Assembly: GCA_004369085.1 (NCBI GenBank)
Contig: ML210217.1
Location: forward strand, 62,001 to 126,000
Direction of reading: 5' to 3'
DNA length: 64,000 nucleotides
Source of the DNA: Coprinopsis marcescibilis
Lineage: Eukaryota > Basidiomycota > Agaricomycetes > Agaricales > Psathyrellaceae
The translations under genes were made by a program, and so were the position numbers. This document shows positions 8,738 through 62,499 of the stretch, piece by piece. The notes below the pieces were generated by a model. The model made no database searches and was not told the DNA's origin. It saw nothing but the letters and a program-made list of their open reading frames with translations. Numbering within the stretch: position 1 is the stretch's first letter; each line of letters begins with the position of its first letter.

Positions 8738-8783
8738 TAGCTAAGTTACACACTGTACAGTACACGCTCCGCCACGAATTCAA

Positions 8784-16271: not shown

Positions 16272-16573
16272 TTACATGCAGTTCCAGCGTCTGCATTGAG
16301 GTTCGGGTTCCCGGACGACTGGGTGCTCTGATGCAGAGCGAATAGCATCGCGGATAGAAACCCGACCGACTGGTTGCGCAGCGGCTTCAGGCTCTGGCAG
16401 CGCTGCACGAGCGATTGGCTGTGAGGCAGCCTCAGAGATCGCCATGGGAGCTGCAGACACAGAGATGGTCACTAGTATTAAGTGATTAGACTAAATGTCG
16501 AGTCTCAGATGCTAGAACAGGAGTACTTACTGCAGAAGGCAGCGAGAGATACGAAGAGAGTGGACAATCGCAT
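16272..16573 (-). CDS. QCRRWNCM peptide precursor A
   Basis: Two exons: 16573-16531 (43 nt) and 16471-16272, intron 16472-16530 (59 nt, GTAAGT..CTAG, phase 1 after codon 14). The product is 80 aa. It starts with a signal peptide (MRLSTLFVSLAAFC/MTISVSAAP), then a pro-region rich in Ala, Pro, Glu and single Arg residues. It ends VVR-EPEP-QCRRWNCM-stop. The spacer EP-EP after Arg is a run of X-Pro dipeptides, like those removed by Ste13-type dipeptidyl aminopeptidase in alpha-factor maturation. The core would be a Gln-started octapeptide with two Cys four residues apart, able to form a ring. Copies at 19.6 kb (same core) and 51.4 kb (Asn to Ser) share start, intron position and ending. The last four residues are WNCM, so this is not a CaaX box. 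I know no named family; signal-molecule or modified-peptide roles are inference. Confidence 0.85.
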
Positions 16574-16680
16574 TTCGGATAAAGCTAGGCTGTAAGGAAA
16601 GTCGGGCAGTTGTAGGAGGACCGAGGATGTCTGGCTGGCAGAAGATGAAATCGATAGTTGGACTAGTCTTCGGGTAAGGC

Positions 16681-16688
16681 ATTATATA
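16681..16688 (-). promoter_or_regulatory. TATA box of peptide gene A
   Basis: On the minus strand TATATAATGCCTTA begins about 108-115 nt upstream of the ATG. Peptide gene B has TATATAATGCCTAA at nearly the same distance. Confidence 0.5.
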
Positions 16689-17914
16689 GTCGACGGTTGC
16701 GAAGCCAGTGAATGTTATGGCGCAAAGACAAGGTAGCTTCTCAATTTGGGAGAACGAAAGTAGAGACCCAGTGCACTTGCCTAACGATGACATGATGCTT
16801 CCGTATAGTACCTCCGGAGTACTGCAAGGTAAGCGCGGGCGTGATGGCGATCCATAAACGCGCCTCCAAAAGGAGAAGCCCACCTTGTCCCCGATTTGGA
16901 CCCACTTCAAGCTAACATCCAATTTAGGCAATGCGACTGGTTTCCTGTAAAGTATCGTAGAAGGCGTTTTCTAATGTTCGGGGATTGTGTAAAGGCAACT
17001 TCTTGTAATATATCGAAGGAAAAAGACTTGAAGAATATAAGACTAGTGGTGTTATCGTCACGATGCTAATGTCGGTGTGGCTGGAAATAGGCCTGCTCGG
17101 TTATGAGGAGAAATATTCCAGAGACCATTACGAGGCTCGGCAGCCTTGGTTTGCTCAACACCCGTCCCGTGGAGATTGAGCGGACTTTGAGGCTGCGTGT
17201 TGCTTCACTCAGTGCACGATACGCCAGAACTTCACTTTCCATCAGATGATGTGCCAGAAGCTCAAAGTGGCACACAGAAGATATTGCTTCAATTGGATAC
17301 TCCTTTGACGCTACTCACTTTGTGAAGCTGAAGCAGTGGCATCCCTCATGATTTCGTGTATCACTATGATTCCAGGGGCATTCTTATCTTCCGATTCGTC
17401 AACAACTCGACTTCTGCCGTCTACCTTCGACTTCGACGTCCGGTCGGTGAGCACCTCACAACATGAAATATCCCCGCCACAAGAACTCTCGGGATTGCCT
17501 TGACCGTCAGAATAATCCCTACCATACTTGATATGTAACTGGAACTCCCGACTGAATTGTAAGTCGAGCTCATCTCCGAGACTGAATTGAAACTTTGTTG
17601 TGGCGGACAGGGGTCGTTCAACTCCACGCATGGCTATCCCCTAAGGCATCCGGCTAAAGCGGCGTCTAATCAGCGAGCATCCAACATGAGTATCCGCAAA
17701 CGGCGACAAGCCCGACATCATCCCATTGTGGCAAATACGGTAGAATACGGTATCCAGAGCTCCGGTGAGAGAAGAAACCCACGAAATGACCGACTGCCGT
17801 TCTCGGGAATATTCTGTATCGCGGGAGGGACAAAGGGATGGTACCTGAGAGAGTTAATTAGCCTGACGTCCTGCAGTCAGAGACGTCCGGGTTGCACACA
17901 CGCCCGGATGAACC

Positions 17915-18174
17915 ATGTCATGTGGAATCAACATTCTGTCATACAATTTTCAAGGTGTCGTTTACTCAGGCTTGCACAATGCACTGAACAAACTGGTCAG
18001 TCCCATAGTATTCTCATTTTCTCTATGGCCTGCTACTTGCCTTTTACAACCTCAGTACTATCGGCAGGATGACCCGGACGATATTCTTGCCCCGAACATC
18101 ACCCACCTTGAAGAGGTCAATTATTTGTTGCTGGGTGGGCAAACGGTATTGCTATACATACATAAGACGACAAG
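17915..18174 (+). CDS. Unrecognised spliced coding fragment
   Basis: Two frame-compatible exons (17915-17995 and 18056-18174) are joined by a good 60-nt intron (GTCAGT..CTCAG, phase 0). The joined text reads ..VVYSGLHNALNKL/YYRQDDPDDILAP.. and later HLEEVNYLLLGGQ, with a further donor (GGTAAAT) at 18175. Composition looks protein-like, but I recognise no family and find neither a clear start nor the downstream exons. It may be a gene remnant. Confidence 0.22.
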
Positions 18175-19556
18175 GTAAATGTTACAAATAGCCTTATGAT
18201 GATCAGAGAAACTCTGACCGAGATATCCTACATGTAGACAACCGCGCGACCATAATCCAATAGATTATTCTACTGAACCGATCATCGAGGGAGAGGAATG
18301 AGATGAACAACCGTCAGAAAATGCCGTAGATAGTGAATATCAGCAGGGATAGATTCAGAGAGTACAAGTAATGGCCACAATTGCAACGAGAACTGCTGCG
18401 TGTGTGTTGCAGATATATTGGTAGAGCTTCGCTGATGTATCAGAGGATGTGGATGTAGTATATACCAAGGGGCAACTGTTGTATCGTAGAAGCTCAGCCA
18501 TATGCTATCGGGAAATCGCCAGATTGTCATAACAAGTTTCTGTATGGAATTGGTACGTCTACCGTCTACCAGATATGCAGCAGACACCCAACTGTATCAC
18601 TCCATTGCGCTGTTCAGTGCCGCTTTGTACTGAGACCATCCTGACGACTGGTAGACCGCAACAGTTGTGCTAACAAGGCTCTTAAATAAACATTCAGTAT
18701 AGCCCTTAGCTGTAATGCAAACGGTACCACAAAGGATGAAGCAAAAAAATCTACTACGTTCTCGCCTCAGTGTGTGTAAGTAAAGAACTGAGTCGAGAAG
18801 AAAGAGATCGATACTTCTCCCAAGGGGGCCCAGAAAGAAGTGCATTAGCTAACTATCTGCAACATGTTTATCTAGGACTCCTCAATCCAGAATGCTATAT
18901 CAGAATTCCATGATGTCGAATCTCGACTCTCTGATTCTGGAATTCTTGTATCGACTGTATCAGGGTAAACGTACCGCTGGACCTATGCGTGCGATATCAA
19001 CCTCTAGGAATACCTTCTCGCAGCGTTTCATGAACCATCTCTCATCTATAAGCTGAGCCGGGAGCGTATAGTCTTCAAAGCTTACTATCTCAGGCGCGGA
19101 TCAAACTGTTCCCGCTATCAAGCGCGTTAGACCGAGTTGGGAATGTCTTGACGCCCAGCCCAGGGCTCTTCAATAACAATAGCCACGATCAGAACTTGAA
19201 GTTGAAAAGCGGCAGCGAGTTGATTCAAGCTGTACTACGTACAAATAGCATAACAATTGTCCATGGGAATATATCTATGCTACATACGAGATTGAGTCAG
19301 ATGCGATGAGTGGGATGCGTGTGAGTGAGGGAGATTAAATAATAATACAGATCGATCGCTGCAAAAATGAGAGGATGGCGCATGAAACGCCTCGTTGGAA
19401 TTGGGCTTCAACTGTGAATATATGGGGAGTGGTAGGATGGCTGAGATCTATATGTATCAAGTCAGTCTTAGAGTGCGATATTTGAATGTCAAAGTGAGCT
19501 CACCTTGGTATAGCCTGTTCTTTGAATTTCGATGAATGGTGGGTGCGGTTGCGTGA

Positions 19557-19762
19557 TCACATGCAGTTCCAGCGCCTGCACTGTGGCTCGGGTGCACGAG
19601 CGTGTATCTCAGGAACGTCTGCTGGGATGGGGATGGGTGCGGCAGACACACAAGTGGTCACTAACAAAGGAAAACTATCAGTACCAACCAACAAGGCTGA
19701 CGTGTACGACCGCACTCACAGCAGAGAACTGCGATAGAAGCGAAAATGGCGGTGAATTGCAT
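19557..19762 (-). CDS. QCRRWNCM peptide precursor B
   Basis: Two exons: 19762-19720 (43 nt) and 19660-19557, intron 19661-19719 (59 nt, GTGAGT..TTAG, phase 1 after codon 14), identical in position and length to gene A. The product is only 48 aa: signal peptide (MQFTAIFASIAVLC/LTTCVSAAP), a very short pro-region (IPIPADVPEIHA), then R-APEP-QCRRWNCM-stop. The core octapeptide is identical to gene A while the pro-region is almost unrelated, so selection appears to act on the C-terminus. The spacer has changed from EPEP to APEP but keeps the X-Pro-X-Pro form. Downstream, a GTGAGC donor (about 19499) and a TATAG acceptor (about 19451) suggest a 3'UTR intron, as in the other copies. Secretion is well supported; maturation and function are inference. 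Confidence 0.85.
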
Positions 19763-20779
19763 CGAGGATAGGAATCGAGTGGAAGTAATGACAGTGTCTT
19801 CAAAGCAAGTATTTGGCTAGCAGAGAGCGATAGCGATAGTCCTCGGTCTCGCTGACATTAGGCATTATATACCTGCCCAGCGTCCCAGCACAAGACGCGG
19901 TTCGAGTGTTTTTTCGCGCACGAACAAGGAACAGGCCAAATCTGGAACCTCGTTCACTCTTCGTCTCGGCCTGGGCGCTACATCATCGCGAGTGCAAGAT
20001 AATAATAGCGAATACTCAGGGCGACTTCTTTGTTATTTCTCATGCCGTGACTGAGGCTGTTTCGTGATAAGTATAAGGGGACATCACGTTGCCGCATTTC
20101 TATGGGCCTCGTGTTTGCGCCTTTCCGCTGGTTGTTATACGCACTCATCCATAGCTGTGTCTGCGGACATGTAAAGGTGAAAGCAGACTCAGGACTTCCA
20201 CAACAACGAGATTGCTCTTCTTCAGAGTCGATACGTACTTGCTGTGTTCTGGTCGACGGGGTGGGTAGCAGTGGGTTCGAACCTCGATGAACCCGAAAAG
20301 TAAAATCGTACCGAGTCCGAGATCTCGGAAGTACCCGACTGAATGGTGACAACCAGAGACGGCCCTTTCCTTGATTTTCCTGCATTAGCTTTACACTTCC
20401 CTATCAGACAGACCATTAATTGAATAGCGCTTAGCATTCAATGTCAGTATAAACCACTTACTCGCAGTAGGCAACAACGAAATGCGTATTCGGGGGAGAC
20501 ACCGCCAATGAATTTAGGGGAGGGAACTACATGAACGTCTCGGATCGAGAAGGACGGTGAGTCGAGCACGACAAAGGGCTGAGATACATGCACAGAGGTA
20601 TGTATGCAGCAGGTACAGGTACATATACATTTCATGGATAGCCCGCTGTTGTGATCGGAAGATGTGCAGACACAGATCGAATCTGTTGTTACGGGATAAC
20701 GATGACCACCCTTTCCTTCGCAAAGCGACACCCTATCACTTGAGGACGCGGCCATGTCCGTCAGCTCTCCCCTTCGACG
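19763..20779. other. Intergenic, no supported gene
   Basis: Upstream region of peptide gene B and downstream region of the first F-box gene. Frames on both strands are short and domain-free. Confidence 0.45.
19864..19871 (-). promoter_or_regulatory. TATA box of peptide gene B
   Basis: TATATAATGCCTAA on the minus strand, about 102-109 nt upstream of the ATG, matching gene A in sequence and spacing. Confidence 0.5.
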
Positions 20780-22087
20780 TCACCCCGGGCCTTCTACAGG
20801 AGAGAAACGGAGAATCCCCTCCTTTCTCAGTTTGGGTAGATATGGCTCGACCTCCTCCCGGTAGTCCCTGGGCCTATCTTGCATGCATTGCTGAATTTTA
20901 ATGCTAATGTTCTTCAGATTTGGAAAACGCAGTCGGTTAGATAGTGTTCCATCGAGTTTCCTCCAGTATGCTGGCCATTGGCCTCTGGTTGTGTCTTTCT
21001 CCTCCTTTACAACAATACATATGGTATCGAGTTGAATGTGCCCCAACGAGAATGTCAGGAGTGGACAGAGAGCAGCCGATGACGTAGGGTTTGCTGCTCT
21101 CGAAGGAGGGTCCCTGATGACTAGGTTCAACCGGCTCATATGAGCAAAAACCGAAATGTCGGCGAGAGTAGACGATTGAGGTCCATCGGCAACAGCTGTT
21201 TAAAGCCGGTAAGCAATATATCCAGATCTAAGATTCTCAGAGTCGAGGCACTTACTGTCGAATAGGACATCAACTGTCAGATGCTCCAACGAACACGCAC
21301 AGTCCACAAGAAAGCGATGTAGGAGCTCTCGCGAAAATGGTGGACCGTCCCTGGTTACCTGTATACCGAGCTTTCGGACCTCGCACAGCTGCCCAACGCT
21401 ACTTCGTTCCAGTAGATGCGTTATTACGCTGTCGGACCCGTGATTGAAAGGGTCCGATATTGAAAGGCAGTTGAGTAGCTTCAGCGAACCTTTCGAAGGA
21501 GTTTTGAATGGTTGCTCCCAACATTGAGCGGTAGCGTGTTTGATCTCCAGCTCCTTCAAGGATGGACCACACCAGTCCACAATGCAGATAGGAGCATTGG
21601 TTAACTTCAGGCACGTCAAAGATTCGGTGCAACAGATGGCGAATATTGCGTCCCTGGCCTCTCGCTGGATTTGCGACCGTCGACACAGGTCCAGAGCGAG
21701 ATATCGGACGGAATTCTGCTGGGCGACCAGGCGAAGGACTTTGGGCAAGTCTTCGTCTTCGTCAAGCCAAAACGTCCTTCCACCACAGCACTCGTCATCG
21801 CGGATGTGGATAGCCCTGACGTAACTTGCGAGCTTCGGAGAGAGTTGGAAAAGATGCCAGAGACGCTGGGAGGGGTAATGCGACGCGCGAGGCTTGTTGC
21901 ACTGACTTTCGAGGTATATGGTTGACAACATCTTCTTTTGACAAGGAACACGGAATGCGGAGCAGACCATGGATGCTGCTCTAAGACAGTCGAGCGAGCC
22001 CGGATGGATGGAGCCATTGAGGTGGTGACTACCGGACGGGATATGGTCTATGATCTGCTCGACAACTTCCAAAGGCACCTTGTTCAT
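20780..22087 (-). CDS. F-box / LRR-like protein 1
   Basis: Two exons: 22087-21256 and 21195-20780, intron 21196-21255 (60 nt, phase 1), 415 aa. The N-terminal F-box reads VPLEVVEQIIDHIPSG, then ASMVCSAFRVPCQKKML. Downstream is a degenerate solenoid: DEDEDLPKVLRLVAQQNSVRYL, SLTCLKLTNAPICIVDWCGPSLKELEI, and in exon 2 RFPNLKNISIKI. F-box proteins are substrate adaptors of SCF (Skp1-Cullin1) ubiquitin ligases; the C-terminal part would select the substrate, which is unknown. It is the leftmost of three same-strand paralogs sharing the intron phase and the WCxPSLxxLEx and RFxxLxxxxI landmarks. These families expand strongly in Agaricomycetes. Confidence 0.8.
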
Positions 22088-22915
22088 TGGAACTGGTTTG
22101 TTGGAATGCTGATAGATGTGGAGGTGTTATAAGGAGAAATGGGACTCGGAGGATGCAAGTAGCGGTTGGACTGGTTCGAAGGAGACCTAGAAACAGTAAT
22201 ACCATTGCATCACTGGCCTTTCTCCCACTCTTGCCAGCGTCACAATAAAAGCACCGCTGCAGGTTTGCTCAAGCAAGTCCCGACGAACTTGAAATCTCCT
22301 GTACACAGATACATTAGAGCTTGTGGAGGTTAGGGCAGCCTAGAGCTCCGAAGGTGAATTCGGTCTGAGTAATTGTCACGGTAAACTTACCAAATCTGTA
22401 ATTACGGGCCAGTAAGTCGTTAGGCGCAGATTGGTCATTGGATTACGTTGTAGACATTTGGAAGATGTCTTTTTAATCCGGCATGAATAAAGTCAGGAGA
22501 GAAGAGGCGAGGAATTACAAGGCGGTTAAAAAGTACTTTTTTACAGCCATTCGAATCGAGGAAGGGTTCAACGTTGAACTTTGGACTTTGGACTTCGACA
22601 CCGCCACTCTGACAAGTCACATTCTAAACCGCCATCAGTGAGGCGCATCATGAGGGCGGCTTTGATCCCGGAGGATCGATCGCGTCGGTATGCCGCCGCC
22701 CCTGCCGGCCCGACGCGACGCCTCGAAGTACCGTGATTAACAATTTTAAACCAGTAATTTGAGATTGAGACGAGCTGGATATACCATATGGCTATGTAAT
22801 GTGGCTAGATACCAACACGGACAATTATCACCTGCACTTAACAATGGGTTCGTACAAATTCGAGTCTGAACAAGACTACAAGCGGATAGACCCGGAGGTA
22901 ATCAGGGATCCAACG
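22088..22915. other. Spacer between F-box genes
   Basis: Contains a GC-rich patch near 22670-22730 and the promoter of F-box gene 1. No gene or repeat with a clear second copy seen. Confidence 0.4.
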
Positions 22916-24321
22916 TTATGGATACAGAAATCCCAACCCTCCCCATGGCGAGTTGAACCATCGCTCCCATGCTTGGGGCCAATATGGGTACCACTCCTCT
23001 GCCTTCATCTCAAGGATTCCAGCCTCTTGTATCCCCGGGAGAAGCGAAGCAATATCTTTCCGTGCCTTCGCAAGCCCGTTCAGCGATTCCGCTCCGGCTG
23101 AGATGCCCATAGTTTGGATTTCGATGGTGACGCACTTCAGTCTCGCGAACCGAAGCTTATCCGTGAGGAGCAAGTCGAGTTGGCCCCAATGATCTGCGTT
23201 GGGTGGTTCGTACAAGTGTGGCCGGTTGCCAATCTCGCCATGGCGAACGATGAGGCGTATGGTTTCGACGACGTGTGGTGCTGAGAGATTGCGCAAACGG
23301 GTGACGAATGGAAGAATGGAATCTCGCGTCTTCGTGTTGCACACCACCAAATTTGAGAGGGTGATGTTTCGGAGAGTTGAGAAGCGAGAGAAGTCGACGA
23401 GATCTTGGGCGCGCATTTTGGCAAGAACAGAACCGAACAAATTGCCATCTGGTCCAACGGGGGCATGACCTGTAACTGCAGCGTTAGCCACACAAGACAG
23501 CAGCTAAGCAAGCATTACTCACGTAGGCTCCACATAGCATACCAAAGCGTTTCCAAGGTGGCTGGACACGCTGAGAAGAGGCGAGTAATTGACTCGAAAT
23601 GAGCTGTCCCTCCCGCACTCTTTGCGGACACAAAGAGCTCCTTCAGATTTTGAAGGTCGATCCATTCAGGCTGCAGAAGATACTCAATCGTCCCCGCGAC
23701 ATCGCCTTGAGGAACAGACAGAAACTGGAGCCCCAGTGGCCCATCCAACGGCCTCAAGTCCGTCCAATCGTCCTCCGTATCCTCTATGCAATCCAGCTCC
23801 AAATGCGTCAGCGACGGCTTGCACCAAGTAACAACGGAGATGGGTGTCTGGTGAAGATATAGGGAGTGGAACGACCGCGAAGCAAATATCGTCGCGATTG
23901 CTTGCTTCGTGGCTGGTGGAATGGTGGAGAAAGGGTTTAGGCACGCCAATCCCAGATGTCGAATGTTATGGTGTTGGACAATGACGTTGAGAGCCCTTGG
24001 AAGATCCTCGTCCTGGTGAATCCAGCCCACTCCATCGCTGTCTCCCATCTCCAACCCCTGCACATATCTCGCAAGCTTGGGCGAATGTTCGAAGAGCGCC
24101 AATAGCTTGCGTCCAGGGAGAACCACCGACTGTGGCGTCTCGCTCGGGCGGTCAAGTTGAATGTAGGAGAAGAGCCTTTGTTGGCAAGGATGTCGGAATG
24201 CAGAGCAGACGAGAGAGACTGTCTTGAGGTCCTTCTCATTGTCAAGGCGATCTCGCGGCAGGTGGTCGACGATGACCTCGAAAAGTTCCAGGGGGAGTTG
24301 GTGCATTGGCATATCCTTCAT
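22916..24321 (-). CDS. F-box / LRR-like protein 2
   Basis: Two exons: 24321-23523 and 23469-22916, intron 23470-23522 (53 nt, GTGAGT..ACAG, phase 1), 450 aa. F-box: QLPLELFEVIVDHLPRDRL then VSLVCSAFRHPCQQRLF. Solenoid landmarks: IHQDEDLPRALNVIVQHHNIRHL, SFHSLYLHQTPISVVTWCKPSLTHLEL, and in exon 2 KLRFARLKCVTIEI. Start MKDMPMHQLPLEL; a second Met five codons in (MHQLPLEL) is an equally good start. Same family, strand and intron phase as its neighbours, consistent with tandem duplication. Likely an SCF adaptor with unknown substrate. Confidence 0.8.
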
Positions 24322-24798
24322 GATTTTGCGCGGGCAGCGAGCTGCTAGACGGTATGCTGGTATACGGGTTCTGTTGCGCAGGACTGGGAATGAGGCAAAA
24401 GCGACATTGGACTATAAGTGGTGGCGGTCATTGATAAGCTAAGACGAGGATAGCGGCATATTCGTGTGAAATTGAGACCAGCTCGGAAAAACAATTGCTA
24501 CCGTATGAGGACTTGGCGTTCTTGGCTTCTTGCACTGGAGAGCGCGACATGCAGTGTCGTGAAGCGCCCGCGACTATGGAGCGAAAGTCATGTTTGCAGT
24601 AATTAGAGACTCTTATGCAACGAATCTAGGTGAGAGGATTCGGGGTTTCAGAAAGGTTTAGAGACACGGTAGGACAGTTCATCTTGCAGTAACCTGAGGA
24701 TCAGTGGTTTCAGGAAGGTTCAGACCATGCTAGGACACATTCTGACGCCAGTACAGGATCTAATCACTTTGGTAGCTTATGCTATAACTAGTAAACTG
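24322..24798. other. Spacer between F-box genes 2 and 3
   Basis: Holds a short imperfect tandem repeat (listed separately) and otherwise nothing recognised. Confidence 0.4.
24643..24768. repeat. Imperfect two-copy tandem repeat, about 63 bp
   Basis: GGTTTCAGAAAGGTTTAGA is followed about 63 bp later by GGTTTCAGGAAGGTTCAGA, and both are followed by a TAGGACA motif and a GGATC.. end. It lies just beyond the 3' end of F-box gene 3. Confidence 0.5.
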
Positions 24799-26144
24799 CT
24801 ACATCAGCGGGAAATTGTTCATTACATTGTACCACCCAAGGTTCCGTATATAACTGGGCCAGTAATGGGTTTCCGTTATGTTTAGAATTCCCTCTGTTTG
24901 AAGATGGGTAAGATATGGCTCGATTTGGTCCCGAACATCTGTGGGATCCCTCTTGGACATCTCCCAGGCAAACTCGACTGTGACTTTTGTCAGGTTTGGA
25001 AATCGTTTCCGGTCGGAGAGGATGCTATCAATAGTCCTCCAATAGTCTGGATTTGGTGGGTGAATTATGTCGTATGTGCCGGCTTGTTGGCAAAGGAACA
25101 AACCAACAGATGTGAGTTGTGGGTGGTAGGATGAAAATGTCATGAGCCGATGGATGACCCAGAGAATGGGGTCAGAGGGACTGATACAGGAGTTTTTGAA
25201 GTTCAAGTTGAGTGCTTTCAGTCGGGTGAACCGGGATAAATCAGGGAGTCCATGCGCCTTCAGGTGTTCCGGCTCTTCTATGGCTATAGATTACACAAGT
25301 TCTGTCAGCTATACAGTCAGGAGCCTAAATATTCTCACTCACGATAATATGGCTTCAGATTCGGACGCTGGAAGGATAAGGTCTCCACATTCACACACTC
25401 GTTCAGTAGTCGTTGAAACTCTCCAGTCAAATCTGGATCTGCAGCTGCAGCATCGAGAACCAGCTCCCGAAGTTCTCCCACAAGCTGCTCTGCCCGGCTA
25501 CCGTTAACAAGATGTGAGAAAACCTCCCATGGATTGGCCATGAACATGTCGGCTATGTGTAGGTAGCTAATCCTCTTGGGCGGTCCAACGGGGGTTACTT
25601 GGAACGATGGATCCTTGCTGTAAATTGGGGCAATAACCTCCACCTCCTTGAGCGATGGGCCAGCCCAGTCGATAAAGTTGATTGCCGTGTTAAACAAATA
25701 AAGCTGGGTTAGGGAGTTACACCGACAGATGGCCAGGAGGGATGCCTTCGCGCTGTCGCCAATGCATGAGCGGCTGCGCGTCCTGATACCAAAGTACTGG
25801 ACCAAGTCCTTTTGAGCGATAAGGTGGAGCGCCTTATGGAGGTCTTCGTCCTCCTCAAGGCACTGGCACACATCGCAGCATGTGTAGTCGCTTATATGGA
25901 CGCCTCTAACGTAGCTTGCAGCGGCCGGGGAGAGCTGGAACAGCCGCCATAGGCATTTGCCTGGGTGTAACGGACGGTTGGGGTGGGTTCGACTGCATCT
26001 GCCTCCAGACACGCGGATTGTTGATAGCAACCTCTTTTGGCAGGGTTCACGAAATGCAGAGCAAGCAAGAGACGCCGCGGAAACGCTATCCTTTGGAATG
26101 TGGGCTATCACATTCTCGATGAGCTCTTGCGGGAGGGTATCCAT
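24799..26144 (-). CDS. F-box / LRR-like protein 3
   Basis: Two exons: 26144-25343 and 25283-24799, intron 25284-25342 (59 nt, phase 1), 428 aa. I start at MDTLPQELIENVIAHIP, which is the F-box itself; the open frame continues 40 codons upstream, but that part looks non-coding. Landmarks: AASLACSAFREPCQKRLL, LEEDEDLHKALHLIAQKDLVQYFG, SLTQLYLFNTAINFIDWAGPSLKEVEV, and exon 2 RFPNLTKVTVEF. A Cys cluster (CCDVCQC) appears at the place where paralog 1 has ECCGG. It is the third same-strand copy and a likely SCF adaptor, substrate unknown. Confidence 0.8.
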
Positions 26145-26927
26145 TGGTGCTGTTAGCTTATACAACAATATGATTTCTTTCTTTAATACTTGTAGATACG
26201 CCTTACCAATAACCCCGGGCTGATGACTGTGTGTACTCAGTCCAAGTCCACTGAGCGTTTCCATCAGGGATTATTCGTTTCAAAAGAATCTTGAGGGCAT
26301 GCGGAAGGAGATTGTTGCGTATGGTGTGTGCGTGTACATGTGTATAGTGTATGAGAGATAGCAGTGTATGGTATGGCTCCGTAAGTGTTAACTTGGACAC
26401 GACTGCTGATATCTACACACTCACTTCCACACACAAAGCGATGTGTATGTCACACACAAGAGTTACAGGGACACCTTCTCAAAGCTCGGGCTCATCAAGT
26501 CAACTTCACGCATTTCAGAACCAGGAGAGGTAGATAAAAGGTTCAGTCTTCAAAGATGGATTGTAGTGCAAAATTAATGTATGGGCAGCGTTAGCCAGCG
26601 TATACAGAAAGACCTACCCCGTAGATCTTTACAACAGTACAGATGAGACCGCAAGGTACTAACGGCTATAAACGTCTAGATTGCAATATCTGCGTAGGTC
26701 GTTCTGATCTCTGAGTAACATTCATGTCCACATACACAATGCAAGCTCCGCACGGTTTCTATGTAACAAGGATACTCAGCAGTCGGCAGAGATGGGGCAC
26801 TGTATAAAACCAGGCAAGACTGAGGAGCATCGAGCTCGGGCCTGGTGCTTTACCTTCTCCTCCTCATTCGAATACTGTTGCGGCTGGTCCATTGTCATCC
26901 TCTTTATCCTATTCAAACCATACATCT
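26145..26927. other. Divergent intergenic region
   Basis: Upstream of F-box gene 3 (-) and the secreted protein gene (+). Contains a TG/CA-rich stretch near 26320-26460 (GTGTGCGTGTACATGTGT, ACACACAAAG). No gene seen. Confidence 0.4.
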
Positions 26928-27929
26928 ATGAAATTTCCCTGTGTCGTTCTACTCCTCTCAATTCTCCTGCCAGTATGGAGCGCCCCAATCCCTGATCATG
27001 TAGTCTTTGATCAGATAGAGGCCAGAGTTCCGGGTATGATCTGCTGCAGAATGAAAGTGACACGTTCTAACTTGACTCTAAACTATATCAGACAAAAGTG
27101 TGCTAAGCCTAGTACTTCGGCACTCTATCATCTTGAACAAGAAAGGCCAGCCAATAGATGGAACCAACCATTGGGCTATTTTGCTCACAACTCCCGATAA
27201 TGTCCAGAGCGAGCATGGATTGGCTATATCTGATGCGAATGCATTGGACTCGGATCGAGGGTACGTGATTGTGTTGTTTGAATAGTTATCGGGGCACGGT
27301 AGCTCAGTCAGCATATTTCTTCCAGAAAGATGTTTTACCGAGAGACCGTAACCAACTATGCGATAATCAGAGACTATACCGTGTCTCCAATAATCGCAGG
27401 AGAGAGTGGAACAACCGATGCAGCTGGACTCAAGAGTTATATTGTAAACATCATGAAACAAAAGGCACTGGGTGTCAACGGCAGTCCTGGTATCGAAATA
27501 ATTGGCAAAGAAACATGGTTGAACTGTTACGATTGGGCCATCAATGTGTTGGAAACGTTGGCAGACAAGGGCGTTGTCGGATTCGAGAACTGGAAGAGAA
27601 GATTCAAGGCTTTGTCAACAGGCGGATCCGATCCCAGTAACGAACTTCCAACAAAAGCAGAAGTTCACAACCTCACCAAGGAGAACTCACTTCGAGTTGC
27701 GAAGAAAGCTGTAGAGAAGAAAAGCAAGAAGAGGGGGATTCTCTCACCTCAAGCTCAAGCTGGACCGAGACGACCTATTGGGAAGGGTACAGTCGCCAAG
27801 AACGCAGTACTGGGCAAAGTCCCAGCTAGGCCAACCAAGCCCAAGCCCTTTCGAAAGCAGGCTGCCAAAGCTCCAGGACCGCCAAAGCCAGTCGGCGGAC
27901 CACGGGCAACGCCCACGCGCCGAAAGTAG
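26928..27929 (+). CDS. Secreted protein with His and Asn-Cys motifs (LRAT/NlpC-like layout), basic tail
   Basis: Three exons: 26928-27033, 27092-27260 and 27326-27929 (introns 58 and 65 nt), 292 aa. Signal peptide MKFPCVVLLLSILLPVWSAP. The central domain has a strand pair with NHWAILL (about residue 60) and, after about 90 residues, WLNCYDWAINVLETLADKG. A His in a strand followed by an Asn-Cys at a helix start is the arrangement of the LRAT/H-rev107 branch of the NlpC/P60 papain-like fold, with His and Cys as the catalytic pair; this is a pattern match by eye, not a confirmed homology. The last 70 residues are very rich in Lys, Pro, Ala and Arg (GPRRPIGKGTVAK.. to TPTRRK), like a nucleic-acid- or wall-binding tail. 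No neighbour suggests a pathway. Confidence 0.6.
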
Positions 27930-28780
27930 CTGTACTTGCATTCTTGTATGCGTAGTTCCCTTGATTGTTTCGCTACAAATTCACTCGCTGAGCATTGGCA
28001 TGCATTCAACCACTTTTGACTCAACCGGGAGTGTCGATGGCAAGACTGTGCTAAAAGCACCGTAAGGGAGGTTAAATTCGAAAAATGTGGCGACGTGGTG
28101 TGTAATGTCAGAGAGGTGTCGCCGTTTGGTCATTGTTTGTGTGACCATGTAATCAAGCCAAATAGGGCGGTCCCAGCGAGTTGTAAAAGGCTGTCTGTGA
28201 TAGCATGGACCAGAAATAAAACAGCGAGCGCGATATGCAAGTTTGGGCGCCTATTGATCCAATGTGGGCGACCAGTACCATGACAAACCTGACACAACAG
28301 CGATCTATCTCTCAGCCGAATCGGGCGAAGAATTACATTGAGATAGACATTTATTAACTTCTGAAAGAAATATTACATGCTCAGGCAGGCAAGTATCGTA
28401 TGTAGACGTACTGACGAGGAAAACTATGAACGAATACTTTACAGCTTAGAAAGTCGACACAGCGAAAAGTATAAATAAGAGCAGAGAGCGAATTTGTCCC
28501 TAGGTTGCTGCTAAAATAAGTTAGAAGGAAAGACGGGAAATAAACGACGAGTGGGAACGAGAGTTTTGAAAGACGAGCTGAAAGCTGAGTCGACGCGCAG
28601 AGGTCGGGATCGAGAGGTATACAAATACACACTAAAAAGAGAAAGAGACACGCGACATAACTTGTCAGCGAAGATAATCGGGAGTTAACGAAACTGAAAT
28701 CAAAGTTGTCACCGAAAACGACGACCGAAACGCAAATCACAAATTCTGGGGGACCATCCAGAGTCTTCCCCACATCACCA
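27930..28780. other. Convergent 3' region
   Basis: 3' flanks of the secreted protein gene (+) and amidase gene (-). No coding signal. Confidence 0.5.
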
Positions 28781-31062
28781 TCACTTCTCGCCATCAACAT
28801 GACGCACCTCCCTGAGATAGTCCGCAACAGCCCTCTCAGCGACTCTCATGCCCTGCAGCACCTTCTCCTCCTCCAGCCGCCTCCCCACCACCTGCACGCC
28901 CACCGGCAGCCCATGCATGTCCTCCAAACGCCGGTCGTACAGGTGGTACACACCTTTGGCCACACTGTTCATGGAGGAGTAGGGATACGATGGAGGCGAT
29001 ATAGACAGGGCGTTTAACGTTGACGAAGAAGACGATGCCGGAGAGGACTCAAACTTGGCCGACGTCGACGTCGACGAGCTTTCATCAAAGAACCCAGGCG
29101 GAAGGGCATCGACAGCTCTGTCCACATTCGTAACTGGCATAACACCAGCAGAATAATCGATCTAAGGCGAGACGCACTCCATCTGTCAGCCGTTTCGCAA
29201 ACATGCAGAAAGATTACTACTTACCAAATTAAACAAAAAGGTATATCCAACGCTCATGAGTGTAACCTCCTCCTGATCTCCAATCTCAAACGCGGGAGTC
29301 GGGAACGGCACCGTGAGCACGAAATCCAAGCCCTCGTCTGCCCAACGCTCATACCACACCCGCTTGTACTCCTCCCTTTTCGCCGTCTCCTCTCGTTCTT
29401 CAAGCACTGTTAATGGATGCATGGTTCGATAGATATTTGCTGTAAAGGGGTCGATGGATTCGAGGAAGTAGGCGAGTATGTTCTTGACGAAACGCGGGAG
29501 GCCGAAAAGCGAGAGAATGCCCTTAGCTGCTGGACTGATGGCTTCTTCACCGCTTGGATGAAGTTGCGAGGCGATTTGCTTGCCTACCAAGCGAAGGTGT
29601 CAATACATGTCTCAGGAATGAATACGGGTTCTTACCCCCATCAGAGAATAGCAGCTTATACCCAATTTGAAGCCCTTCCGCCAGATTTGGCGGCGAGCTA
29701 AAGCGACAAAAGAGCCCCTCTGAGTACGAAATAGGCTCGACGCGATGTTCCACTTACAAGTCAACGACTTCATGACCTTGGCTTCGTAGCGCATTCGCGA
29801 CTGTCGCCAATGCACGTCTACATGCAGGCGTGGATGGAATGGTGGCTATAAACACGCGTCGCGTTTCGACTTTAAAAACTTGGACTCTTCTCGTCACGGA
29901 TATAGGCTCACCATCATCCCACATAATCCCCCACTTCAACTTTCTCCCTTCTTGTTGAAGGTCCACGGGGCGCCACGGAATCGGCAGGCACTACCACGTA
30001 CATAAGTCAGCAGTGTCGTCAAATAGGAAGAACTAAAAATGCACACCGTACCGTATGGTCATACATCCAAGGCCGAGCACCAACGACCCTCTTCCAAAAC
30101 GCCTCCAAATCATCCAAGGTACCAGCCATCGGCGAGCTCACGATTGGCACGCCCTCAAGCCCTCTCATGCTCGTCCTATTCCCCCAGTTCGGGAACCTCC
30201 CCGCACTCCCTTTCAAACTCCAAACCCCGCAAAAATGCGCAGGGATCCTCACGCTGCCCCCAATATCGCTTCCAATGTCGATTTTGCTTCCACCCGAAGC
30301 GAGAAGTGCGGCACCCCCGCCAGACGACCCTGCGGGCGTAAACGCGGTATTATGCGGGTTTCGCGTCACGCCAAAGACATGCGATTGGGTTTCGAGACCG
30401 ATCAGTCCGGCGGGGGCGGTGGTTTTGGCAAGCACGAGGGCGCCGGCATCTTGGAGGAGGCGAACGATGGCGGAAGAGGATGACGCGGGTCGACCAATGT
30501 TCCGACTATAGCCTATTGTGCTATCGTGGCCCTCGATGTCGACGGTATCTATCAGTGGCGTTGTCAGAATATACGGCAGAAAGAACGGAACCGACACACA
30601 CCTTTGATGCTAACAGGGACGCCAAGCAAAGAGCGTTCATTGCTGCCAGTCTCAACTGTGTCTCCACCGGGTCCCCAGCTCGAAACCGCCGGTGTTCTCA
30701 GCGACTCCTCGAACATCACATCACTCAAACAGTTGGTCGCCTCCTGAGCCTGCAAACATTTCTTCCCGTACACCTTCATCACATCCGAGGGCGCGATTGT
30801 CCCAGTACGACACTGGGAAACAATGTCTGACAGTGATAGCGCATGGAGTTTCGACTCTTCTTGTTGGGTAAGCTGGAGCGAGTGAGGTGAGGAGGCATAC
30901 AGAGCCTCGGCGGCAGAGGCAATGCGTGATTGGCGCTCCTTCTGCTTCCACGCGCTATAAGAACGGCGGGAAAAATAAATGGTCAGAACGCAGTCACACC
31001 TCCGCAAGTGGGACGACTCACCACGCGCGCTGATGAGCAGAGGGTGAAAACGAGAAGATCAT
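28781..31062 (-). CDS. Amidase (amidase-signature family, acetamidase/FAAH-like)
   Basis: Seven or more exons. The start at 31062 (MIFSFSPSAHQRA) is joined to AWKQKERQSRIASAAEALYAS. The catalytic Ser-Ser-Lys triad region is visible: Lys in VSIK/DTVDIEGHDST (spliced about 30540-30615), GSSGGGAALLASGG, then GSDIGGSVRIPAHFCGVWSLKGS, where the Ser of GGSVR is the predicted nucleophile. Later exons give GIMWDDG/VETRRVFIATIP, EGLQIGYKLLFSDGG/KQIASQLHPSGEE, DFVLTVPFPTPAFE and, after IDYSAGVMPVTNVD, the usual C-terminal LEDMHGLPVGVQVVGRRLEEEKVL. Fungal members hydrolyse small or fatty amides in the cytosol to release ammonia. A Ser/Thr-rich insert (ESSSTSTSAKFESSPASSSSS) near the C-terminus is unusual for the family core. 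The intron after HGHEVVDF was placed by splice signals. Confidence 0.85.
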
Positions 31063-31225
31063 GTCCAGGTTCCGTTTAACTGCAGGTTACCAGTTAGTTA
31101 ATAGCAAAGCAATTGAGCGTAAGTGGTAGTAAGAGTAAGCAGTAATAGCAGTTGATACCGCAACTCTTCGTACCCCACCTGAAGCCTCGTGCCCTACCTT
31201 ATCCTATACTTATACCCAACCTACC

Positions 31226-31650
31226 AATGCCAGCTAAATCATCCCCGAGGACATCACGGCGATCCAGCCAAGATCTCATAGGTACGACAACTGCGGAAGC
31301 TCCAGCTCCCACTAGGCTCTCCCTTGTTCCTTGCGTAAGCAGCACCTCCCCTCTGAGCTAGAACATCCAAAAACCTTATTTCCACGCCAAAATTATCCCT
31401 CCTTGCCCTCTTTCTTCCCTTGTTCGGATTTTGCCGTCACCCAGGCCTCCCAATTCAGGTCCTTCGATTTCCATCCCCAACTACGTATTCCCTGCCACCC
31501 ATTTATGAAAATGCCATGCCACCCACAACCACGCTGATCGTCAACTTGGAAACCTATCAACCCAGACCGCGGATCGATCTCCTTCTTCCAACCGAGCAGG
31601 GCAAGAATACCGTGTTGCGCCCTCCATGGCGTACGAATAACTATGTCTGA
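31226..31650 (+). CDS. Possible small two-exon protein
   Basis: ATG at 31226 gives MPAKSSPRTSRRSSQDLI, then a candidate intron (GTACGA..CACCCAG, about 31281-31441) joins in frame to GLPIQVLRFPSPTTYSLPP and continues through PRPRIDLLLPTEQGKNTVL to a stop at 31648-31650. The joined text is Pro- and Arg-rich and has no domain I know. It lies divergent to the amidase. The intron is longer than others here, so this is a tentative call. Confidence 0.3.
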
Positions 31651-37997: not shown

Positions 37998-38591
37998 GGA
38001 TGGCTATTCTGTTGAACTGATTCAAGGTCGATAACGGTGGTACGGACGTAAGGCTGGAAATCGTCTTAACCTGCCCTACAAGGGCTGTGTTCAATTTATC
38101 CATTTCCAGTCCCGTGGGTAACCAGACCACATTTGGCGACCTAACTAAGTCGCCGTGCGACGCGCTCGCTCGACACTCAAGCCTCGGAACTGCTAGTGGT
38201 TCCCAGTGTGACAGAAACTCTGCCAGATACCCAGCAATGCGTACAGAGCAAGTACATAGGGAGAAGAGTTTAACTGTCTGCACAGCTGAACTGGAGGTAT
38301 GAAGTATAAAACACGACGACTACGGGTAGCAGGTCGGTCAGCATATCCAGTATTTTCCAACTCTTCGCTTACCCGTTGTATAGTTGCTCCTCTGGCCAAT
38401 CCGTCAGCGGCACCACCAGTCAATTTGCAGTCAATCAACACCTCCGCGGCGTCAATGTCTCAACTCACACCTCTCGAAACCCACCACTACGAGGGGCAGC
38501 ATTCGCCCGTGGCGCGTCAAGGCCCAAGGGGTTAGGCTCGTGAGTCGCGACCATCCCGCACCAAGGCCTTTCCTAACATCCTAGCATCCAA
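37998..38591. other. Upstream region of the NACHT gene
   Basis: Probably promoter of the NACHT gene (-). No gene recognised. Confidence 0.4.
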
Positions 38592-39180
38592 ATATGTTCC
38601 CGGTTAATTATCGCCTTCATTGTGAAAGACTCCTGCTACTCCTGGCCCTTATGTTTCAGGCTCTGAGGCTCTAGTTATGATTTCTGAATCTCGCAGTGTG
38701 AAAACCGTCGCCGGCTACATACTGTAGCCTTTAGGGCGGTGGTTTTGCCCCTATTAGGACCGACTACGCGCCGGGCCCCTGACGTGAACTCTCCGCCTCG
38801 GTGCTCTCCGACCATTTCACGCACCAGGAACTGCGGGATTTTGGACTTCCGGACCATCGAACATTCCATGAAGTTGACCTTCTGATCCTTGCGACGCAAC
38901 ACTTGAAGACGCTCGCAATTGGTATGTGCCTTGCTCCCCATTTTACCTGATGTTGACGGTTGAGCAGTCTGAATGTTATCCGTGATCATTGTTCACACAG
39001 CTGGCTTGTCCAAGGTTGGCACCTTGAATCAGGAACTGGCGTTCTGGAACGGCCTACCTACCCCTTACCCCTCGTTCTTGTTCATTGTGAACTTAGAGTC
39101 GGGTGACCATTCTGACGGATACCATACTATGGAGGCGATATCTTTTCGCCGGTGGTAAGCATTCACAGAACGGCTTACCT
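38592..39180 (+). repeat. 0.56-kb direct repeat, copy 2
   Basis: Second copy of 35024-35583. It has a small extra segment near 38800-38875 and a few substitutions. It ends about 150 bp before the start codon of F-box-family gene 5 and so lies in its promoter. Confidence 0.8.
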
Positions 39181-39328
39181 GCCATTCTTACTAACACACC
39201 GCAGCTGGACCCTGAGTTCCAAAGGAAACGGTATTTAAGAGCCCAGTAACCCACTTCTGCAAAGACAGAGTTCCTATACACATCTCGTATACCCTCACAC
39301 TTCCTTCCGAAACACACTCCGCTGCACC

Positions 39329-40724
39329 ATGAACCCGAACGACAATTTGGGACTATTCAAACAGGTTCCAAAAGAACTGGAGAAACCCATCTTCGACTTT
39401 TTGGGCCTTGCCGACGGCGAAAATCTATCGCTCGTCTCCAAGCACTTTCTGGAGCAAGGAAAGAAAGTAACCCTTACCGGCATCTACCTCTACCATCACG
39501 GCTCCATCCACAAAGGGTCTCTTCCAGGAGCAAGGCTTTTGGCCGGACCTTTCAACGACACCGATATCGAGAAGCGCAATGCGCGAGCAAGCAGTGTGAA
39601 GGCACTCGAAATCAATGGGGACTGGGTGGCTACCGACGAAAACCTCCCAAAGGCCTTGGCCCTTATCGCCAGATTCAAAAAACTCGAATACTTGGCCATC
39701 ACGGACGTGAAGTCGACCAGCTGGACTGCAGCGCCCGATGCGACGAAGAAAGCAATTGCGGCCCTCTGCGCGCTACCCTCCCTCACAACTATCTCACTCA
39801 ACAGCGCCCCTTTCCGTATCCTCGAATTCTGCAGCCCATCGGTGAAGAATATTACTCTGGGGCGTAACCTCCCTTTGTTTTTCGACAACGAGGTCTTTAA
39901 CGCCCTCTCCTGGCAAGGAAGCGAAAAGTTGGCACCTGAAACAATTTCTATAAGCGGAGGCGACCTCGCTGCCCTTCAAAGACTTGTAGCCCTGTCGAAG
40001 GACGCGAAGATCAACCTCGGGAGCGTCAAAAACATTGAGATGGACGTCCAAGAGGCAAGTGCATGGTATCTTGAGACAGTCCCCGAACTATTGAACGCAT
40101 GCTCAGCGTCTTTGGAAACACTTGCATGGGAGGCGTTTGTGGACGGTATGTAACCTGCCCTCATTGGCCGCTCGCTGCTGATTTTGTATGAAATTTGTAT
40201 TAGGCGAAGATCCAACTCAGCCCAAAGGTCTCATAGACCTCTCCAGCTTCCCCAAGCTGAACAACTTGATCGTTTCGTTCGGTCGTCAATTCCCCAAGGA
40301 AGGCTCCATTGACCCGATCGTGTGGGTGAATAACCGACTCAACACGTTCGCCAATCCTCAGCCCTCGCTCAAGCTTGTCCATCTATTCGTCGTAGTTCGG
40401 AGTAAGTTCGCCAACTACTATCACTATCATCCAAAATCTGGGGAATGGGAAGAATTCGATCAGATCTTGTCCAACAAAGGCCGGTTCCCTTCCCTGGGCA
40501 AAGTCAGAATAGATGTGAAGGTACCCATTATTGATGACAAGCCTTTTGGTGATAACGTCAAGACCGGGATCAAGCCATTCCTGCACCAGCTCCAAGCGGT
40601 CAATCTGTTGGAGGAAGGGGAGGTGAATGATGAAGAGCGGGAGCTTTTGAAGAAGTCTCCTTGGGGGCGCGAACTTGCTTTCTGGGCGAAGAAAAATACC
40701 GAACTGACCTTTTTCTTCGAATGA
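39329..40724 (+). CDS. F-box-family / LRR-like protein 5
   Basis: Two exons: 39329-40145 and 40204-40724, intron 40146-40203 (58 nt, phase 1), 445 aa. The N-terminus has a recognisable F-box-like start QVPKELEKPIFDFLGLADG, then LSLVSKHFLEQGKKVTL. Shared landmarks: ATDENLPKALALIARFKKLEYLA, SLTTISLNSAPFRILEFCSPSVKNITL and, in exon 2, RFPSLGKVRIDV. FPKLNNLIVSFGRQF in exon 2 aligns with FPKLQNLIVSYSRRF of gene 4, so genes 4 and 5 are each other's closest relatives here. A TATA-like GTATTTAAGAG sits about 100 nt upstream. Probable SCF adaptor, substrate unknown. Confidence 0.78.
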
Positions 40725-48168: not shown

Positions 48169-48438
48169 NNNNNNNNNNNNNNNNNNNNNNNNNNNNNNNN
48201 NNNNNNNNNNNNNNNNNNNNNNNNNNNNNNNNNNNNNNNNNNNNNNNNNNNNNNNNNNNNNNNNNNNNNNNNNNNNNNNNNNNNNNNNNNNNNNNNNNNN
48301 NNNNNNNNNNNNNNNNNNNNNNNNNNNNNNNNNNNNNNNNNNNNNNNNNNNNNNNNNNNNNNNNNNNNNNNNNNNNNNNNNNNNNNNNNNNNNNNNNNNN
48401 NNNNNNNNNNNNNNNNNNNNNNNNNNNNNNNNNNNNNN
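48169..48438. other. Assembly gap (270 N)
   Basis: A run of undetermined bases. Its true length is unknown. Confidence 0.99.
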
Positions 48439-49630: not shown

Positions 49631-49720
49631 CTACTCACGGACATGTCATAAAATCGTATAAGCGCCCATACGTCTACGTCCAAGTGCCAATCTTGCCTTG
49701 TCACTTAAGGCACAAGCTTC

Positions 49721-51225
49721 TGCTTGTGGCTCTCAAGTTTGCTATGTATAGCAAGGACATAATCGTGGGCGCTGATCATTCCACCGAGTCGGAATGTGTG
49801 AGAAAGTGCGGACAGGATGACGCCAGAAATATCTTCTTGCAGAGACTAGAGGAACAACAAATTTATCAATTCATTTATTCATTTATTTTCCCACCCTCCG
49901 ACGGTGATCGAGGAGAACTGACAGCTTACGAAACAGGTGTCCACAGTCAAGTCTGGACCTGATCAAGACAAACCATCATGGTCGGGTCTTATTCAACCCA
50001 GTGTGGTAAGGCGTACACAACAGTGACTGAGGCTCCTGTCCATCCAACGCTCAGCCCTCAAGCTGAACCAACTGCGAGCCCAGCTTGCTTGTCGCTGTAT
50101 GTATTGAGGCTAACTGTTACACCTAGCCAGTGCAAGCTCATGGTAACCCTGATGAAGTAGGCACATGGCGGAGATGATATCATGACTTGTAAATCGCCTG
50201 GAGTAGGTCATGGAGAGTCTTATGCTCTGAAACCCACCTCCCCTTTTACATGTATATGTTGCGATTGCCAAAAAAACTTACTTAACCGGACAGTGAATAT
50301 GGACGACATACCTACTCTGAAGCCTGATCCATCTGCCAGGTGAGATTTTGGATCTATCTTACTATAACGTCTGCACATCATTGTCATTCTGGCACATACT
50401 GTAGTGAACTGAATGGAAGAGACGTAACGCGTAACGCTGGCCTCGATCTGTCTCTAAAAACGGCCGATGTAACGTGTAACGCTGGGTCCGTCTCTAAAAA
50501 TTCATGCATAAAGATTCGTCAAAAAATGGGATATTTTTGGTAATATAAAGTCAATCTCGGACTCCTAGTGCCTACAGCGAATCCATCCAAGCGCTACCAT
50601 TAATGCTGCATGCCCAATGAGTTCAGGAGCACCAGTTGGGACAAGTGTGCCATCAAGGTCCTTCTCAAGTGAATCTTCGGAAACACAAAATGTATCCAAG
50701 CTTCGTTGTTCTCCTAATCTCCTGAAAGGGCAGGGTCAGCATTGCCAAATGCGTGACTTATCACAGCTGGGAATGGGATCTCTTGAGCTGTCTCCATCAA
50801 CGCCCATGTCTTCGGGATCCTCCTCCACAAACCCTTTCTAGCAGGCTAAATTTAATGTGAGAGTGCCGCGGTTGCTAACTTTCTCAGCTGTAATGCGTAA
50901 CAACGGCCACGTCTCTAATTTGGGACCCCGACAAAATGTAATGCTCCAAAATCCGTCTCTTCTATACAGTTCGCTACAGTAGGCTTAGCGTATCATTCGG
51001 TGCCTAGTACACAATCATAGCTGTCATACTTCCATTTGTGGAGGGGCCAAAGGAATTGTGCCCAGATTCGTTGTGACGTGCGCCAAACCCGGCATGCGCA
51101 CCCACTGATCGAGGTCCACACACAGACACCCTTCTTCTCTCTTATCTCTGATGTACACACTCTCCCAACCAGAAAGATTGGTTAGAATCCTAATTGGCAA
51201 GACCACGTAAGTGCAGACAAATTGA
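49721..51225. other. Gene-poor region between the duplicated segments
   Basis: No gene recognised. Two near-identical short motifs, GTAACGCGTAACGCTGG and GTAACGTGTAACGCTGG, lie about 45 bp apart at about 50424-50486, with a related TGTAATGCGTAACAACGG near 50890. Confidence 0.4.
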
Positions 51226-51284
51226 GCGAGTGCCTTGTTCAGGCGCCAAAACAAACATCTCGAGTGGCTATGCCTGTACAACAC

Positions 51285-51292
51285 TATAAAAA
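51285..51292 (+). promoter_or_regulatory. TATA box of peptide gene D
   Basis: TATAAAAA, about 137-144 nt upstream of the ATG at 51429, comparable with TATATAAG about 120 nt upstream in copy C. Confidence 0.5.
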
Positions 51293-51428
51293 GGACTTTC
51301 AAGGTGCATTTGTTTAAGCACCAGCTACCAACTGTACTTTCCTTCTCTTCCCCCTTTTCCTAGTCAGCCTATACAGCCAACTCGAGCTTCCTCCATCTCT
51401 CAGCCTACAAACCTCAACCTTTGCGACA

Positions 51429-51629
51429 ATGCAGCTCTCCACATTCATTACTTCTATTGCTGCCCTCTACAGTAAGTGTCTCTAAGCGATAGAGGCTCAA
51501 TCGATAGCTGATACGTTTGGTCTAGTGGCTGCCTTGGTCGCTGCAGCTCCAGCTCCTGTGGCGGTTGAGGCAGCTGCTATGCAGGCTCGAGAGCCCGAGC
51601 CTCAGTGCAGGCGATGGAGCTGCATGTAA
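51429..51629 (+). CDS. QCRRWSCM peptide precursor D
   Basis: Two exons: 51429-51471 (43 nt) and 51526-51629, intron 51472-51525 (54 nt, GTAAGT..CTAG, phase 1 after codon 14), 48 aa. Signal peptide MQLSTFITSIAALY/MAALVAAAP, a short Ala/Val-rich pro-region, then QAR-EPEP-QCRRWSCM-stop. Compared with genes A and B the only core change is Asn to Ser at the sixth position; both Cys, both Arg and Trp are kept. A 3'UTR intron is likely (CTCAG/GTTAGT at about 51677 to CCACAG at about 51740), also present in copy C. Expression support is good in principle: TATA box, canonical splice sites, AAATGCAG start context shared with copy C. Function unknown. Confidence 0.85.
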
Positions 51630-62275: not shown

Positions 62276-62499
62276 GCGACGAGGCTGGCGTAGGTATACA
62301 ATGAAGAATAGGAAGAACCTGGTAACGTGGGTAAAGATGCTTTTATGCCTTTATATATTGTGTAGGGGCCTCCATTAGATCATGTGGTAGAAGCCCATTT
62401 GAAACGATATTTGACATTCTGAAGAGACCTTTAATACAGATCAATGGAGAACTCAAGGTTAATCTGCATCTACTGGGAATGAATCCACTACTTGGTTAA

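Follow-up and report, generated by a model that had tools for sequence, protein, structure and literature searches.

Short genes of the mushroom Coprinopsis marcescibilis for putative single-core peptide precursors with an alpha-pheromone-like cleavage signature

In the mushroom Coprinopsis marcescibilis (Agaricales, Psathyrellaceae), we analyzed a stretch of 64,000 nucleotides (nt) of contig C72 (ML210217.1, positions 62001-126000; hereafter the window), which contains the three short genes g1, g2 and g3. The genome (36.3 Mb, 448 contigs) has a fourth member of the family, g4, on contig C89. These genes probably encode single-core secreted precursors that work like alpha-pheromone precursors. 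In 4/4 of the encoded proteins, two or five dipeptides with proline or alanine in second position come after an arginine and precede Gln-Cys, the spacers being EP-EP (g1), AP-EP (g2), EP-EP (g3) and EA-LP-EA-AP-EP (g4). The preservation of this rhythm despite the different spacer lengths (4 versus 10 residues) is the strongest single argument for the proposed processing. An arginine with a run of X-P or X-A dipeptides corresponds to the STE13 signature known from alpha-pheromone precursors of ascomycetes, described as repeated XP/XA dipeptides, with X often being Asp or Glu, behind a KEX2 site (PMC9769878).

Gene structures and the conserved C-terminal end

An earlier note on the window, made from its letters, had reported three intact genes on both strands, and all of them were recovered with lengths of 80, 48 and 48 amino acids (aa). 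The g1 gene (16272-16573, minus strand, 80 aa) is composed of exon 1 (16531-16573), an intron (16472-16530) and exon 2 (16272-16471), g2 (19557-19762, minus strand, 48 aa) of exon 1 (19720-19762), an intron (19661-19719) and exon 2 (19557-19660), and g3 (51429-51629, plus strand, 48 aa) of exon 1 (51429-51471), an intron (51472-51525) and exon 2 (51526-51629). Each has a single coding intron, which lies within the signal peptide in phase 1, begins with GT and ends with AG, and follows a first exon of 43 nt; the introns are 59, 59 and 54 nt long and the donors read GTAAGT or GTGAGT. Because this structure is shared, together with the flanking features described below, chance open frames are very unlikely for g1-g3. 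A start resembling a signal peptide, formed by a hydrophobic stretch and then A-A-P or A-A-S, is present in all four proteins as judged by eye and hydropathy.

Behind the stop codon, g1-g3 have a candidate donor of an intron in the 3′ untranslated region (UTR), namely GTTAGT 56 nt past the stop in g1 (16210-16215, minus strand), GTGAGC 53 nt past it in g2 (19498-19503, minus strand) and GTTAGT 46 nt past it in g3 (51676-51681, plus strand). The earlier description of the parts outside the common end as almost unrelated thus has to be revised, as the signal-peptide-like start, the exon/intron layout and the candidate 3′ UTR donor are common to g1-g3. TATA-box-like sequences are located 115 nt upstream of the ATG of g1 (TATATA, 16683-16688, minus strand), 109 nt upstream of that of g2 (TATATA, 19866-19871, minus strand) and 144 nt upstream of that of g3 (TATAAA, 51285-51290, plus strand). 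Within the 600 bp upstream of g1-g4, no 8-mer was common to all four genes and no 9- or 10-mer to at least three of them.

An alignment of g1-g3 revealed the conserved end R-(E/A)P-EP-QCRRW(N/S)CM. The C-terminal octapeptide QCRRW(N/S)CM emphasized before is indeed shared, but the conserved block exceeds these eight residues and comprises 12-13. The core and the stop codon are encoded at 16272-16298 in g1 (QCRRWNCM, minus strand), at 19557-19583 in g2 (QCRRWNCM, minus strand) and at 51603-51629 in g3 (QCRRWSCM, plus strand). They are immediately preceded by the codons for Arg and the dipeptides EP-EP (g1, 16299-16313), AP-EP (g2, 19584-19598) and EP-EP (g3, 51588-51602), which would serve as the signal for Kex2-like and then STE13-like cutting. 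Further upstream, g1 contains R-AA-LP-EP-EA-AA-QP-VGR, which may be the remnant of a second spacer.

The fourth member was located by a search for PEPQC, as one of the seven places outside the window reads PEPQCRRYNCG-stop. The g4 protein has 51 aa and is encoded by a 43-nt first exon followed by a 59-nt intron in phase 1 and a second intron of 68 nt in front of the core exon. This two-intron model agrees letter for letter with the hypothetical protein FA15DRAFT_706134 [Coprinopsis marcescibilis] of NCBI, and the gene model is therefore independently confirmed. Its end, R-EA-LP-EA-AP-EP-QCRRYNCG, keeps QCRR-aromatic-N-C. The gene is flanked by two inverted DUF1996 genes (positions 537-1843, plus strand, and 3975-5048, minus strand, of the C89 stretch).

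The proportions of differing replacement (pN) and silent (pS) sites were determined for the 11 codons of PEPQCRRW(N/S)CM in all pairs among g1-g3 and for each of these genes against g4. Among g1-g3, the core had 2-4 silent and 0-1 replacement differences, corresponding to a pN of 0-0.04 and a pS of 0.36-0.75, whereas the pN of exon 1 was 0.28-0.32. In the comparisons with g4, pN was 0.21-0.25 for the core, the silent sites of which were saturated, and 0.57-0.62 for exon 1. These values, which derive from small counts, suggest that the core is under purifying selection. Among g1-g3, core change is nearly all silent.

We also counted patterns of the conserved end in the whole genome and in a reversed-pattern control. 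CxxWxCM-stop occurred within the window only at the sites of g1, g2 and g3; its DNA form had five places in the genome (g1-g3 and two others) and one in the control. PEPQC was present at 10 places (9 in the control), four of which are the family members and six lack the core; CRR-aromatic-x-C-x-stop was present at 22 places (20 in the control), including the four members. For R-(E/D/A)P-EP-x-C there were four places (9 in the control), three being g1-g3 and the fourth having Ser in place of Arg. The last three pattern counts alone are not above chance, and the case therefore rests on what the matches encode. A score for the family core, applied to the genes of the window and to the scanned parts of C72, C280, C59 and C89, reached 73-75 of 75 for g1-g3 and 72 for g4, compared to 31 for the next best place in these stretches and a maximum of 30 in three single-base shuffles of the C72 stretch. 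A protein search within the genome itself returned g1-g3 only and missed g4.

Several other matches were rejected. The two further CxxWxCM-stop places (C13, C14) gave no signal-peptide model in a one-intron scan. Six of the 18 non-family places of CRR-aromatic-x-C-x-stop (C2, C48, C100, C73, C240, C15) were read and showed neither an X-P spacer nor a signal-peptide model with one or two introns; the script applied to these six did recover the gene on C89. An isolated IQCRRYHCA-stop at C100:89105-89128 (minus strand), with no X-P spacer or signal-peptide model, is probably due to chance.

Relatives in other organisms were sought in a database of 5.8 billion proteins. With g2 alone as query there was no candidate, and a profile of g1-g3 had 171 candidates, 0 of them at E ≤ 10. 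A four-member profile had 355 candidates and found two proteins among them, namely g4 and D9757_006029 of Collybiopsis confluens (Omphalotaceae), a protein of 74 aa ending with R-EP-EP-LCRFDCI. It agrees with g1-g4 in the signal-peptide-like start, Arg, EP-EP, Cys, Arg, an aromatic residue, Cys and one residue before the stop. Since the layout agrees in this way, a common origin or a common design of these sequences is likely; the E-value alone would be insufficient. If the Collybiopsis protein is related, the cleavage code would be conserved while the core turns over. The earlier note had proposed a homolog search and had regarded homologs with an unconserved C-terminus as speaking against its reading. 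The search yielded a paralog in the same genome and one weak relative, in which the core does differ but the cutting signals and the cysteines remain. The note's central idea, namely that selection acts on a C-terminal peptide released from a secreted precursor, gains support from the pN and pS values of the core, by g4 and by the Collybiopsis layout. None of the protein database searches returned g1-g3, which are therefore apparently unannotated.

Predicted processing and comparison with known precursors

In the proposed processing pathway, the signal peptide would be removed first, and a Kex2-type protease would then cleave (A/V)R behind its single Arg. A dipeptidyl aminopeptidase of the STE13 type would subsequently remove the X-P/X-A dipeptides (EP-EP, AP-EP or EA-LP-EA-AP-EP), leaving QCRRWNCM, QCRRWSCM or QCRRYNCG as mature product. 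The N-terminal Gln could become pyroglutamate, and the two cysteines would be able to form a six-residue ring; a disulfide in the core of g1-g4 is plausible. The peptide might then be secreted to act as a signal between cells or between species. With respect to candidate proteases, the genome has DPPIV_N matches in one gene (C197) and matches to P_proprotein, the hallmark domain of Kex2, at three loci on C6 and C2, two of which contain stops inside the six-frame match, as expected from introns. Three kex2 genes were reported for Coprinopsis cinerea and other agaricomycetes (PMC9769878). A C. cinerea precursor produced in Pichia was cut at RR and gave the STE13-trimmed peptides QMRPPSW and QYKAPSW, the latter also in the pyro-Gln form, and several products of three precursors suggest cleavage after a single Arg (PMC9769878). 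STE13 signatures are also present in basidiomycete precursors according to a survey (PMC6339444).

The closest parallels are basidiomycete Kex2-processed repeat proteins (KEPs) with a STE13 motif (490115 of C. cinerea and 1091723 of Pleurotus ostreatus; PMC9769878, PMC6339444), which like g1-g4 have a signal peptide, a basic site and X-P/X-A dipeptides. They release short peptides, some of which start with Gln and were found as pyro-Gln, and one example comes from the same genus (PMC9769878). Whereas KEPs have several repeated cores, dibasic sites and linear cores often ending with W, g1-g4 have one core, a monobasic Arg and a pair of cysteines. One two-cysteine peptide was described for a basidiomycete yeast, but its sequence differs from the g1-g4 core (PMC6339444). 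The alpha-pheromone of Fusarium oxysporum also has two cysteines together with W and R, the cysteines being at position 2 and next to last, and can form an intramolecular disulfide (PMC7289986); the order of cleavages is proposed to be the same in g1-g4. Its core sequence is unrelated, however, and the possible ring comprises 8 residues instead of 6 (PMC7289986); furthermore, ascomycete alpha precursors have about five repeats on average rather than one core (PMC6339444). The hybrid-type pheromone precursors of Hypocreales resemble g1-g4 in being short and Met-ended, with a Cys close to the end and Kex2-type sites, but their motif is present in three copies and they end with a CaaX box (PMC3068285); g1-g4 have neither feature. 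The core string and the junction of spacer and core were not found in the literature searched, most subscription papers lying outside its scope, and among the articles listed on basidiomycete Kex2 and small secreted, UstYa/DUF3328, STE13 or single-core precursors, none described the g1-g4 type in its title or the beginning of its abstract. The earlier statement that no described family is recognizable accordingly stands for the core; the cutting signature, in contrast, is that of alpha-pheromone and STE13-motif precursors (PMC6339444, PMC9769878).

A number of observations weigh against an alpha-pheromone-like mode of action. The site is monobasic in 4/4 of the precursors, with Arg following A or V and dibasic KR, RR or KK being absent, and all four have one core, in contrast to the repeat proteins described as relatives. 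Because of the monobasic site and the single core, we describe g1-g4 as working like alpha-pheromone precursors and not as members of that group. Only four paralogs were found, two with an identical core, and the substitution counts come from 11 codons. The Collybiopsis protein is a weak relative (database E 0.25, hhalign probability 95%) and has a core shorter by one residue. The oxidized alpha-pheromone of F. oxysporum is inactive (PMC7289986), and by analogy it is doubtful that the disulfide would be the active form. Basidiomycetes are held to mate via a-type lipopeptides (PMC9769878), so that an alpha-type peptide would be without a known receptor in this group. A Pfam search for STE2 gave no match in the genome, but the controls were likewise silent, which makes the result uninformative. 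Finally, no phenotype was seen when six C. cinerea KEP genes were knocked out (PMC9769878).

Alpha-type peptides are unexpected in basidiomycetes, since mating there uses lipopeptides. Because KEP surveys are repeat-based and gene predictors easily skip spliced genes for 48 aa, single-core precursors can escape both; three of the four genes (g1-g3) were absent from what the 5.8-billion-protein database returned. Tentatively, and with less confidence than for the processing itself, we suggest that mushrooms might hold unrecognized single-core, two-cysteine peptide hormones that are made via the alpha-pheromone protease route but do not serve mating. Their cores (QCRRWNCM, QCRRYNCG, LCRFDCI) would turn over fast between species with R-(X-P/A)n being fixed, they would mostly be missing from annotations and repeat-based KEP surveys, and their receptors would be other than Ste2. 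As the peptide is short and chemically simple and its mature form is predicted, its role in mushrooms is directly testable in Coprinopsis, a genus already used in the laboratory.

Alternative explanations

The further modification of the peptide considered in the earlier note would make g1-g4 precursors of a ribosomally synthesized and post-translationally modified peptide (RiPP), the C-terminal core being cross-linked to a modified, dikaritin-like cyclic peptide by UstYa-family (DUF3328) proteins encoded nearby. Dikaritin precursors are likewise secreted and cut by Kex2-type proteases (PMC9233826, PMC7329392), and outside the peptide system proposed here the window contains a pair of UstYa-family (PF11807) matches, a frame at 6431-7168 (minus strand, Pfam E 5.5e-18) and a match at 8832-9113 (minus strand, C72:70832-71113). 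This pair at 6.4-9.1 kb is about 7-13 kb away from g1 and g2, but g3 is more than 40 kb distant from it. Eight UstYa matches were listed for the genome, forming four pairs on C72, C280 and C59, and we estimate the chance of a pair in a 64-kb window as about 1%. The Trp or Tyr of the core could be a cross-link partner. The linkage is, however, not repeated elsewhere: the three remaining pairs (one on C280 and two on C59) had no QCRRW-type precursor within the 30-40 kb that were read around each of them, and contig C89 with g4, which sits between the DUF1996 genes, is without a UstYa match. The UstYa clusters have a common companion of their own, a But2-like gene, and dikaritin precursors typically contain several cores (PMC9233826). 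DUF3328 neighbors occur at 22% of all surveyed KEP genes, but at just 6.1% of those of basidiomycetes (PMC7329392). With one nearby pair in its favor and more evidence against it, a UstYa-modified product is unlikely.

If g1-g4 were instead ordinary small secreted proteins that act whole, e.g., as effectors, no peptide would be released and the C-terminus would be a binding motif. Small size, a signal-peptide-like start, the absence of repeats and an Arg that is monobasic only would fit this explanation, but it does not account for a core with nearly silent-only change beside a spacer that varies in length and yet keeps the X-P/X-A rhythm and the preceding Arg; moreover, the residual protein would be very short and unlikely to fold. 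We regard it as rather improbable. A different matter is whether the stop codons are real, as the bases at the stop can be read as a donor in g1 (ATGTAAGG) and g3 (ATGTAAAG) that might splice to a further coding exon. The stops vary among the four genes (TAA, TGA, TAA, TAG), there is no good donor at the stop of g2 and g4, the better donor of g1-g3 lies 46-56 nt past the stop, and the NCBI protein of g4 terminates at the same stop. In view of the downstream donors and the end of the annotated protein, a coding exon past the stop was rejected as very improbable. Hardly conceivable is an identity with the lipopeptide (CaaX) precursors of mating pheromones encoded at the B locus of basidiomycetes, of which several tiny genes with a Cys near the C-terminus, three of them ending in Met, are reminiscent. 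The ends read W/Y-N/S-C-M/G with Cys second from the end and form no CaaX box, and g1-g4 have a signal-peptide-like start, which is not known from basidiomycete lipopeptide pheromone precursors. In addition, C24, C40 and C210 carry the STE3 receptor matches listed, none of which lies on C72 or C89. For these reasons this identity was rejected as well.

UstYa cluster and other features of the window

The UstYa cluster extends over 6431-11732. Between the UstYa genes there is a plus-strand frame (8271-8741), which is related to the But2-like genes accompanying the other UstYa pairs; the plus-strand frames at 10764-11732 have their counterpart on C280 (13.5-14.6 kb). C280 carries one further UstYa/But2 set and C59 two. 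At a distance of about 1.8 kb from the pair in the window, the region 4379-4646 (minus strand) encodes a small secreted-type protein of 63 aa with one predicted intron of 76 nt, which ends with ..CRLRNIGSDGKPLTDVEAFRICI. Its sequence is unlike that of the QCRRW genes, and it is possible that this protein is the precursor of the UstYa cluster. Repeat-type KEPs were not recognized in uninterrupted frames around the UstYa pairs.

The region 21203-40150 contains at least five copies of a diverged family of proteins of about 300 aa (at 21.2, 23.5, 25.3, 33.4 and 39.2 kb), which represents a local expansion. One copy has an F-box match below the cut-off, and a further relative is located at C72:45.6 kb. 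A small multi-exon family is present in several copies on both flanks of the region (window 2139-3587, and 42-53 kb and 126-128 kb of C72); its hydrophobic frames resemble those of membrane proteins, and the single exon tested had no Pfam match. A run of 270 N, which may be a gap of the assembly or a withheld stretch, occupies 48169-48438. At 58852-62350, two tandem, strongly basic and repeat-rich stretches (58.9-60.4 and 61.0-62.35 kb) were found, the matching frames of which are 71-90% identical.

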